DNA of 64,000 nucleotides from Pseudomonas sp. 10S4. GTDB lineage: Bacteria; Pseudomonadota; Gammaproteobacteria; Pseudomonadales; Pseudomonadaceae. The stretch lies in assembly GCF_034344865.1 (NCBI RefSeq), contig NZ_CP133774.1, forward strand, positions 1,240,001-1,304,000. Direction: 5' to 3'. How positions within the stretch are numbered: position 1 is the stretch's first letter; every line of letters starts with the position of its first letter. The notes beneath the pieces were generated by a model that was not told the origin of the DNA, ran no database searches, and was given only the letters and a program-made list of their open reading frames with translations. Of the stretch, positions 17,004 through 59,354 are shown piece after piece. The position numbers and the translations under genes were made by a program.

Positions 17004-17126
17004 TGACTGCACTACGGTCCTACACCCCGGTTGCAGCCACCAAAATCGCCGCTTATAGTTCGCCCCGTCGCTGACAGCAGTCGGCGATAGGGTTTCGCAG
17101 CCCTACAGCGCAACGGTAACCAAGCT

Positions 17127-17277
17127 CCATAACAAACGATGGTCGTTTTCACGCCCGCAGTTCGTTTTATGGTGGCTGCGTGTGGGAGACCTTCGGGTCT
17201 GCCGGGTTCCTTGTGCCTCGGTCTGCGAACCCGCACGCAGCTACCACCCATTCGATTCGCAGCGAAAAGTAGTAGCT
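17127..17277 (+). ncRNA. candidate structured leader RNA, copy 1
   Basis: Predicted fold from the sequence: a 12-bp stem P1 (17171-17182 with 17234-17245, one G-U pair) encloses hairpin P2 (AGACC-TTCG-GGTCT, 17187-17200) and hairpin P3 (CGGGTTC/GAACCCG, 17203-17233), giving a three-way junction. A short hairpin P4 follows at 17251-17266, and CATAA/TTATG (17128-17171) may form an upstream stem. The same layout with compensatory changes lies at 58802-58953. It ends about 28 bases before the start of the small gene at 17306. I cannot assign it to a known RNA family. Confidence 0.6.
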
Positions 17278-17305
17278 CTTCTTTTATGCACAGGAAGATT
17301 TACTT

Positions 17306-17590
17306 ATGACAATGAACAACCCGCCTCGCCGCTTCACCCCCATGTCCCAATTCGCCACCGACTGCCCTGTCTTGTTCATCGATAGCGAAGCTCCGATCCG
17401 CGAACTCCATAGTTGCGTCAGCGAACGCCTCAACGCCGTCCTCAAATACCTCAACCTCATGGCCTGCACCAGCCTGCCGGACTACGCCGAGAACGACATC
17501 AACACCGTCACCAACATCGCCCGGATCCTGATCCAGGATGTGCGTGATGTATTTCGGGTGATTGAACAGCGTGGGCTTGACGAGAAATAG
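17306..17590 (+). CDS. small hypothetical protein (94 aa) behind the structured leader
   Basis: A 94-residue acidic protein, no signal peptide or membrane segment. The first 40 residues look unstructured and proline-rich; the rest is predicted helical (SERLNAVLKYLNLMACT, then NDINTVTNIARILIQDVRDVF). AGGAAG lies 9 bases before the ATG. It vaguely resembles small Pseudomonas DUF3077-type proteins, but I cannot confirm that. It shares its leader type with the DUF6124-like gene at 58979. Function unknown. Confidence 0.75.
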   Translation: MTMNNPPRRFTPMSQFATDCPVLFIDSEAPIRELHSCVSERLNAVLKYLNLMACTSLPDYAENDINTVTNIARILIQDVRDVFRVIEQRGLDEK

Positions 17591-35752: not shown

Positions 35753-37313
<1,561 letters not shown>

Positions 37314-48438: not shown

Positions 48439-48536
48439 GTATCGCTCACCTCAAAATTCGTTGTTGCATTACGCAAGGCTCAGCCCTTGAGACTAAAAGC
48501 GCAATGTTTCAAGACACATATCCCCATTGGCGCTGC

Positions 48537-58594: not shown

Positions 58595-58801
58595 ACAGCG
58601 CTGGCTGCCGATTGGGGTTTTGTGTTTAAACGTTTGTCCGTATGAACGGCTGGAGGCTACACAGTCTGGCGTCGCTGCCTACAGCAATGCCGGAAGCCGC
58701 TGACTGGTGGGGTTTTGCGTTGATCTTTATCGTTTGTGGGTCGCTGAAAACTCAGCGAACGGGATTGGAACCCCCGGGTGTTAACGAGGCAAAAACGCCT
58801 T

Positions 58802-58953
58802 TCATAACGTATGCTTGCGCACCTTTAATGGGTGCACTCCGTTATGGCGGCTGTGCGCGGGAGACCTTAGTGTCTGTCGGGTTTTGTCCGTTTGCCCGGG
58901 TTCCAACCCGCGTACAGCTGCCACCCCATCGATTGGAACCCGATGGAGCAGCT
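58802..58953 (+). ncRNA. candidate structured leader RNA, copy 2
   Basis: Same layout as 17127-17277. P0: CATAACG/CGTTATG (58803-58846) with inner GCACC/GGTGC. P1: 58846-58857 with 58911-58922, 12 bp with two G-U pairs. P2: AGAC/GTCT (58862-58875). P3: CGGGTT/AACCCG (58878-58910), abutting P1 exactly as in copy 1. P4: CCATCG/CGATGG (58926-58946). Relative to copy 1, P1 has three double compensatory changes. It ends about 25 bases before the DUF6124-like ATG. Confidence 0.62.
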
Positions 58954-58978
58954 GAAACTCATTAAATGGAGCTTCACT

Positions 58979-59354
58979 ATGTTCAAACCTACCCCCAATC
59001 CCCGGAATCCGGCACCGATTCCCAAACATCCCTCGATGCAGAAAAAATGAAAGAAGCCGCCGACCGCGCCTTCGCTCACTACTTCCCCCGGCTGACGAAA
59101 AACCGGCCAAGCGCCGTAAACACCAGCTCTTCAACGTCGCCCCCGACATCGACGCCGAAGCCCTGCTCGCCAACGCCTCCGAAGACTTGCTGTCCATCAG
59201 CGCGATTGCCGTCAACCTGGCGGACGATGTGGAAGGCTCACGCCGCTCGGTGGCCTTGGCCCTTAGTCGATTGGCGGATGGGGTGCAGTTGTTGGTGGAG
59301 CAGGCGTTGGATCATTACGAGGCGTTGCAGATGCAGATGCGCGCCAAGGTCTAG
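58979..59354 (+). CDS. DUF6124-like small protein (two single-base frameshifts)
   Basis: MFKPTPNP opens the frame at 58979; PESGTDSQTSLDAEKMKEAADRAFAHYF follows in a second frame, and ADEKPAKRRKHQLFNVAPDIDAEALLAN to the end (MRAKV) in a third. Each step is explained by one missing C, in the C4 run at 59000-59003 and the C5 run at 59085-59089. Corrected length is about 125 residues, matching DUF6124 proteins of Pseudomonas, which are helical and of unknown function. It follows structured leader copy 2. Confidence 0.75.

Follow-up and report, generated by a model that had tools for sequence, protein, structure and literature searches.

C4-type antisense RNA cassettes before small genes of a Pseudomonas chromosome

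Known C4 systems and the two leaders of the window

In coliphage P1, icd/ant is silenced by the C4 antisense RNA. The phage's GenBank record (AF234172) annotates the target sites a1 and b1 upstream of c4, a2 directly after it, and b2 before icd. The C4 match extends to 48422, leaving 47 nt before icd, which begins at 48470. According to PMC5320573, RNase P processes the C4 RNA of phages P1 and P7 to about 77 nt by cleavage on the 5′ side of helix P1, the b′ segment partly covers the ribosome binding site, and the a′ segment gives specificity. The same source reports 21 C4-like sRNAs (Group 1) in Acinetobacter baumannii AB5075, with signs of processing at a GG motif, and suggests that they act in trans. 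In the Gifsy-1 prophage of Salmonella, the leader RNA IsrK exerts its effect on the transcript downstream and activates orf45-anrP, in which a small ORF is coupled to anrP (PMC4825925). IsrK is complementary to a downstream RNA, STnc1160, which was likened to the CI RNA of satellite phage P4; titration of the C4-like STnc1160 by IsrK was considered there, although one co-expression result did not fit simple titration. The P4 CI RNA itself (with seqA and seqC) is an antisense immunity RNA flanked by its targets, and is described as acting by transcription termination (PMC4825925). Weinberg et al. 2010 (PMC2864571) list the families RF01695 (C4) and c4-a1b1 and, as cited in PMC5320573, predicted C4 in Pseudomonadales among others. 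An isrK-C4 transcript was reported in Burkholderia cenocepacia (PMC4603805).

The window analyzed here is a 64,000-nt stretch of the Pseudomonas sp. 10S4 chromosome. Its initial annotation described two leaders, at 17127-17277 and 58802-58953, that fold alike before small genes and for which no named family was thought to fit. Both segments match RF01695 above the gathering score of 45 on the + strand, copy 1 with 86.1 bits at 17165-17251 and copy 2 with 60.0 bits at 58840-58928. These matches delimit the conserved unit more narrowly than the bounds first given. The Rfam search proposed in the initial annotation returned a known element, the very outcome that it had named as counting against its reading.

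The folding itself was described correctly. Both leaders fold better than each of 200 dinucleotide shuffles, with z values of -3.18 (copy 1) and -4.42 (copy 2) for the 150-nt segments and of -6.05 and -5.32 for the 87- and 89-nt cores. Helix P1 has 17 bp instead of the 12 bp first counted; in copy 1, 17170-17186 pairs with 17230-17246. The three double substitutions that distinguish the two copies in this helix are present in the sequence. They are pairs 4, 10, and 12 counting from the outer U-A pair, while the numbers 3, 9, and 11 in the initial annotation were counted from the next pair inward. The hairpin named P4 exists as well, and it is better described as a small stem displaying the target site a2.

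Covariation was assessed by aligning the genome's 47 C4 copies. It was found that 20 of the 27 pairs have changed on both sides and that 95.0% of the cells pair. Five measures were compared with those of 500 shuffles, a control in which the relatedness of the copies is not kept, and no shuffle matched the observed value for any of them. In a second control, sliding the partners by one to three columns lowered the pairing to 34-42%. P3 is the weakest helix, with 83.8% of the cells paired and double changes in two of its five pairs. The fold scores and this covariation support the earlier proposal of a selected RNA structure common to both leaders. A new ligand-sensing leader would also present a conserved three-way junction before small genes. 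This reading is extremely improbable given the C4 match, and because the loops are variable and follow their targets, whereas a binding pocket would be conserved. An unnamed riboswitch-like leader was rejected on the Rfam C4 match to both copies. The element is best read as a putative antisense RNA acting on the neighboring Shine-Dalgarno sequence, rather than as a plain cis leader.

The copy-1 cassette (17053-17590, + strand) starts with a c4-a1b1 leader, whose stem-loops display the target a1, at 17053-17108 (RF03163, 23.3 bits, E 0.00075; below the gathering score of 46.7). A candidate -10-like hexamer, TATAGT, lies at 17054-17059; it is suggested by phage P1 and by the aligned leaders, and promoter scans found no site at their threshold. 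A transcript start near 17127 or 58802 is doubtful, since the c4-a1b1 matches begin about 75 nt further upstream (17053 and 58727). The a1 site TTCGCAG (17094-17100) is complementary at seven of seven positions to the a′ segment CTGCGAA (17223-17229). The latter is also complementary to the a2 target TTCGCAG (17256-17262) in the loop of the P4 hairpin, and scores 18 against a non-cognate mean of 11.25 (sd 2.8). The b′ loop of P3 (TTCCTTGTGC, 17207-17216) is complementary with one bulge to the b2 target (GCACAGGAAG, 17288-17297), which is the Shine-Dalgarno sequence of the copy-1 gene. Its longest unbroken run scores a moderate 16.5, the non-cognate mean being 11.5 (sd 2.6). No good b1 was found for copy 1. 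With R1, a model made from the genome's own copies, copy 1 scores 97 bits, its own sequence being included in the R1 alignment.

The copy-2 cassette (58727-59354, + strand) has a c4-a1b1 leader at 58727-58780 (RF03163, 40.7 bits, E 4.3e-9), again below 46.7 bits. It is overlapped by a weak isrK match of 25.6 bits, for which the cut-off is 50. The a1 site (TTGGAACCC, 58765-58773) is complementary at nine of nine positions to the a′ segment (GGGTTCCAA, 58898-58906), which scores 23 against the complementary a2 target (TTGGAACCC, 58933-58941). Part of the b′ loop (TCCGTTTG, 58887-58894) forms an 8-nt run, with wobble pairs, with the b2 target at the Shine-Dalgarno sequence (TAAATGGA, 58963-58970). 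The score of 15.0 is weak on its own beside the non-cognate mean of 11.5 (sd 2.6). Apart from the leaders falling short of the c4-a1b1 cut-off, both window copies have the sequence features of C4.

That the leaders precede small genes holds fully for copy 1, whose gene is an intact ORF of 94 aa (17306-17590). In copy 2, the downstream sequence is a broken gene of the DUF6124 type (58979-59354) lying in three reading frames. Its DUF6124 domain (85.8 bits; contig 1299127-1299315, window 59127-59315) is out of frame with the ATG at 58979. Two paralogous DUF6124 genes (L039 and L041; in the window, 58979-59354) switch reading frame within a short run of C that they have in common (TACTTCCCCCG), which may represent either shared decay or a programmed frameshift.

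How does this arrangement compare with immI (c4-icd-ant) of phages P1 and P7? The covariance model, the three helices, the a′ and b′ segments with a1-b1 upstream and a2-b2 downstream, the position of b2 near the ribosome binding site, and the ATG about 50 nt after C4 are the same. Unlike in the phages, there are dozens of copies on a bacterial chromosome, copy 1 lacks a good b1, and the downstream genes tested encode DUF6124, DUF3077, Bro-N, or unnamed proteins instead of icd/ant. Genes of the icd/ant type were found neither after copy 1, whose product matched no Pfam or NCBIfam family over cut-off, nor after copy 2, with its broken DUF6124 gene. The window resembles Gifsy-1 in having a leader RNA complementary to a downstream RNA, but its isrK match is weak and limited to copy 2. 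It resembles P4 in having an antisense RNA with targets on both sides, but b2 lies at the Shine-Dalgarno sequence whereas CI is described as a terminator of transcription. It is likely, as part of the best explanation of these sequences, that each of the two leaders is a copy of the immI switch on the chromosome.

I propose the following mechanism. One transcript would carry the leader with a1 (often also b1), C4, a2, b2 at the Shine-Dalgarno sequence, and the small gene. RNase P probably cuts C4 out at the 5′ side of helix P1. Pairing of a′ with a2 and of the b′ loop with b2 would then block translation of the downstream gene. The a1-b1 sites of the leader may compete for C4 and so release the block, as proposed for IsrK of Gifsy-1; this is the least certain step. 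The promoter, the RNase P cut, the repression, and the release are modeled on phage P1, Salmonella, and Acinetobacter. In the genome, about 46 dispersed cassettes would operate in this way, each keyed to its own target. The sequences make it probable that every cassette codes for an antisense RNA that keeps the gene behind it from being translated.

Cassettes of the genome and the matching of loops to targets

The genome (7.27 Mb, a single contig) has 46 C4 sequences above the RF01695 cut-off and one at 40.6 bits. The 47 copies lie on both strands (24 and 23) with a median spacing of 114 kb, dispersed before genes for DUF6124, DUF3077, Bro-N, or unnamed small proteins. In 45 of the 47 cassettes, C4 is followed by an ATG at a distance of 44-55 nt (median 51). 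The gene starts were picked by hand, and a few of the frames behind these ATGs are short; the starts of L022, which has no ATG at the expected place, and L041 were also set by hand. By blastp, the 46 downstream products form clusters of 31, 9, and 2 and four singletons, which are short or broken frames. Ten representative products were compared with Pfam, giving DUF6124 (two), DUF3077 (two), Bro-N (two), and no match (four). The Bro-N cassettes are L002 and L047, the latter being the one with the C4 below cut-off. Conversely, the genome has 36 DUF6124 matches, two of them belonging to a single gene, and 31 of the 36 are preceded on their own strand by a C4 no more than 450 bp away. The same is true of four of the six DUF3077 matches.

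Homology between cassettes typically begins about 170 nt upstream of the C4 start and continues to about 480 nt downstream of it (medians of 132 pairwise matches), and the longest matches reach 0.7-0.9 kb. This compact shared stretch of leader, C4, and gene is taken as the probable unit of copying. The c4-a1b1 family was found over cut-off in four of five other cassettes tested (L003, L005, L008, and L036, not L001), and also in coliphage P1. At least two cassettes (L005 and the viral-contig locus L226) have a short leader ORF that shares an ATGA overlap with the following gene, reminiscent of icd/ant of phage P1. Similar short leader ORFs are present in other cassettes. Two loci have unusual layouts. 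L028 (contig 3080860-3080947) has a C4 with no gene after it, and a repeat-like sequence (gtggcgagggagcttgctccc) lies about 60-80 nt downstream of this C4; the repeat-like sequence is also present near both window copies. L019 and L020 (contig 2413142-2413983) lie in tandem, 757 bp apart, as two C4-DUF6124 cassettes whose loop and target keys differ.

Does each C4 fit its own gene better than the genes of other cassettes? The best complementary run was scored for 46 cassettes with own and swapped partners, leaving out L028, which has no gene. For b′-b2, own pairs scored 19.64 and swapped pairs 11.66 (z 20.5); for a′-a2, the scores were 17.92 and 11.40 (z 16.8). In neither case did any of 10,000 permutations reach the observed value. 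The upstream target copies (positions -70 to -35) gave z values of 11.6 and 10.9 in the same cassettes. Control segments with no pairing to the downstream region gave -1.3 (P2) and 0.8 (5′ strand of P1). The permutation test is regarded as conservative, since relatedness among the cassettes raises the swapped scores. Over the 46 cassettes, a′ and b′ are complementary to a2 and b2 at the ribosome binding site. The own target is uniquely the best for b′ in 26 of the 46 cassettes, and for a′ in only six, because a′ types are shared among cassettes. When slices at fixed offsets were compared, all 46 b′ loops differed from each other, while there were 27 different a′ 8-mers. The pair L001 and L007 is illustrative; their C4 sequences are 99% alike outside the loop and the 70 nt before C4 are identical, and the loop and b2 differ together. 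Family identity, RNA structure, cognate complementarity and its diversification, and the association with small genes can be read directly from the sequences.

Such diverse loops in many copies may suggest sRNAs that mainly regulate unlinked mRNAs, as was suggested for the Acinetobacter baumannii RNAs (PMC5320573), which also share with the present ones the occurrence of many copies with variable loops in one genome. In the available text of PMC5320573, possible targets are proposed and a cognate downstream gene is not described, whereas the C4 RNAs here are tied to their own genes. The loops fit the adjacent Shine-Dalgarno sequences, and in a search covering the cassettes only, cross-matches to other cassettes were found in one of 2070 pairs at a threshold passed by 12 of the 46 cognate pairs. 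A mainly trans-acting role is thus quite unlikely, and I favor regulation of the adjacent gene.

Besides these pairings, a recurring GTGG(C/T)AGCTCC-like segment lies about 20-30 nt after C4 in many cassettes (17270-17279 in copy 1). A weaker pairing signal exists between the 3′ strand of P1 and positions 12-34 after C4 (z 4.0), and between this segment and the Shine-Dalgarno sequence (z 2.9). Pairing of the segment with either partner may possibly add a further layer to the switch.

The copy-1 protein and its relatives

The copy-1 protein has no family over cut-off in Pfam or NCBIfam. Its assignment to DUF3077 or DUF6124 was rejected, as no Pfam match passed the cut-off. Pfam gave just a sub-threshold HisKA_3 match (E 0.072), and the profile comparison with DUF6124 was not significant (E 0.057, probability about 1%). 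Its structural model has two long helices and short strands (mean pLDDT 72.3). Foldseek found no fold relative of this model (best E 0.62), and the sequence search against solved structures found none. The model of a DUF6124 protein from a viral contig (mean pLDDT 75.1) likewise had no fold relative by Foldseek (best E 0.45), and the DUF6124 sequence search against solved structures gave nothing below E 0.3.

Eighty relatives of the copy-1 protein were found, all in Pseudomonas. In 68 of them, a C4 is present at the customary distance of about 50 nt upstream of the gene; the exception in position is L148, where the gene start has been deleted and C4 kept. This agrees with the mention in the initial annotation of similar sequences before small genes in other pseudomonads. 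Within this family, b′-b2 matching gave z values of 15.3 (69 sequences including copy 1) and 10.5 (38 distinct sequences). The a′-a2 value was only 0.1-0.2; a′ is constant within the family and so gives no covariation evidence there. As in the window, the fba gene is included in 11 of the 80 relative stretches. The ten of these stretches with a C4 carry at least three b′ types, and the distances to fba differ; thus, the fba-linked cassettes need not represent one site.

C4 is absent in the other 12 relatives, of which L133 is at a contig edge and L146 is a truncated gene. In the remaining ten, the a1 hairpin stays, C4 is gone or a remnant as judged by eye, and the gene is intact. Therefore, C4 is not needed to keep the gene. 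The dN/dS ratio is about 0.2 overall, 0.20 for genes with C4 (65 genes) and 0.23 for those without (10 genes). For this calculation, L149-L151 were left out because of stop codons or frameshifts, leaving 77 of the 80 usable, and then L133 and L146.

These values bear on a type I toxin-antitoxin reading, in which C4 is the antitoxin RNA, the small protein is a toxin, and the orthogonal loops make each cassette self-sufficient. An antisense RNA over the Shine-Dalgarno sequence of a small gene in compact dispersed units, and broken genes with C4 kept (copy 2 and L148), are what such a system may leave. There are also precedents, since Icd of phage P1 inhibits cell division (PMC8198154) and Salmonella AntQ is toxic (PMC4825925). 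However, the ten intact genes with a missing or remnant C4 are under nearly the same purifying selection as the others, which argues against a strong toxin unless the gene is silent. Moreover, the models predict, with modest confidence, helical proteins unlike small membrane peptides, and PADLOC gave no match among the five proteins tested. I consider toxin-antitoxin cassettes unlikely.

Equally unlikely is the reading that the cassettes are selfish or decaying relics, non-autonomous units from prophages and satellites with no current role. Consistent with decay, L008, L026, L039, and copy 2 have short or shifted reading frames, and L028 has no gene after its C4. In contrast, purifying selection on the copy-1 protein and the coordinated change of loop and target indicate that many cassettes are maintained.

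Distribution and viral cassettes

C4 over cut-off was found in 137 of 149 Pseudomonas genomes including this one, and a hand count gave at least 27 copies per genome in 34 of the 149. Among 274 genomes drawn from the class, only 18 including this one have a C4 over cut-off, and the others of the 18 have one to six copies. Outside the genus, two of 20 loci were too short to read. Five downstream proteins from these loci were compared with Pfam, giving one AntA, one Rha, and three with no match over cut-off. AntA and Rha are phage regulators.

Viral contigs were scanned with one exact pattern of the P1 strand, and 80 of the resulting 112 stretches were studied. Model R1 gave 92 matches over the 82 loci searched in the viral set. 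Of these matches, 81 were scored, the other 11 being near-duplicates, cut off, or weak. Loops and targets match in the viral cassettes as well (z 22.4 and 20.5 for the 81 cassettes). Three loci, L225 (2950-10142), L226, and L232, look like P4-type satellites, with an integrase, an AlpA-like gene, a C4 with an ORF of 52-53 aa, and primase-like genes, as named by reading of the sequences. The isrK family is over cut-off in L225 and L226. In prophage DVM-2008, a C4 lies before orf1, which adjoins the prtR repressor gene; the orf1 product and a DUF6124 protein encoded in this genome share 48.3% identity. A search with a single DUF6124 protein found just two viral loci and one phage record.

Given that the c4 RNA of P1 and P7 underlies heteroimmunity (PMC12197685) and that viral contigs and P4-like satellites also carry C4 cassettes, the solitary chromosomal cassettes might be an immunity archive silencing incoming phages or satellites of the same specificity. 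At the middle threshold, five of 3726 host-virus pairs pass against one of 2070 host-host pairs. This is tiny beside the 12 of 46 cognate pairs, and four of the five involve a single host cassette, L008. A looser threshold is passed by 13 of 3726 host-virus pairs, 4 of 2070 host-host pairs, and 21 of 46 cognate pairs. The viral sample is small and picked by one exact P1-strand pattern, from contigs whose hosts are not established. In this sample, a general matching of host loops to viral targets is not supported (five of 3726 pairs, four from L008), and an immunity archive seems rather improbable compared with switches serving their own genes.

Since the known genes in the slot after C4 include antirepressor-type regulators (phage P1 ant, AntA, Rha, and Bro-N), my best guess is that the downstream small proteins are small regulators of phage origin. 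A broader scenario is offered tentatively. Phage-type switches may have been taken up genus-wide by Pseudomonas chromosomes and have multiplied there to dozens per genome, about 40 of them mutually orthogonal in one cell, with selection against cross-talk changing loop and target together following every duplication. They might control small helical proteins that are domesticated antirepressors or modulators of prophages and satellites. In the open-licence literature, as covered by titles and the starts of abstracts, no description of chromosomal C4-DUF cassettes in Pseudomonas was found. The RNA family is known, and I did not find its expanded, mutually distinct, gene-linked chromosomal form described.

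The cassettes represent a natural library of dozens of cognate pairs of antisense RNA and target in one cell. They make it testable how orthogonal RNA regulators arise after duplication, for example with L001 and L007 or the tandem L019 and L020. They also give a first functional handle on DUF6124 and DUF3077, whose mRNAs are probably kept from translation by an antisense RNA of phage type, and connect small DUF genes on Pseudomonas chromosomes with the immunity regions found in P1-like phages and P4-like satellites. Apart from the C4 cassettes, the window has an SAH riboswitch (RF01057) at 35781-35879 on the + strand, with 63.9 bits against a gathering score of 37.
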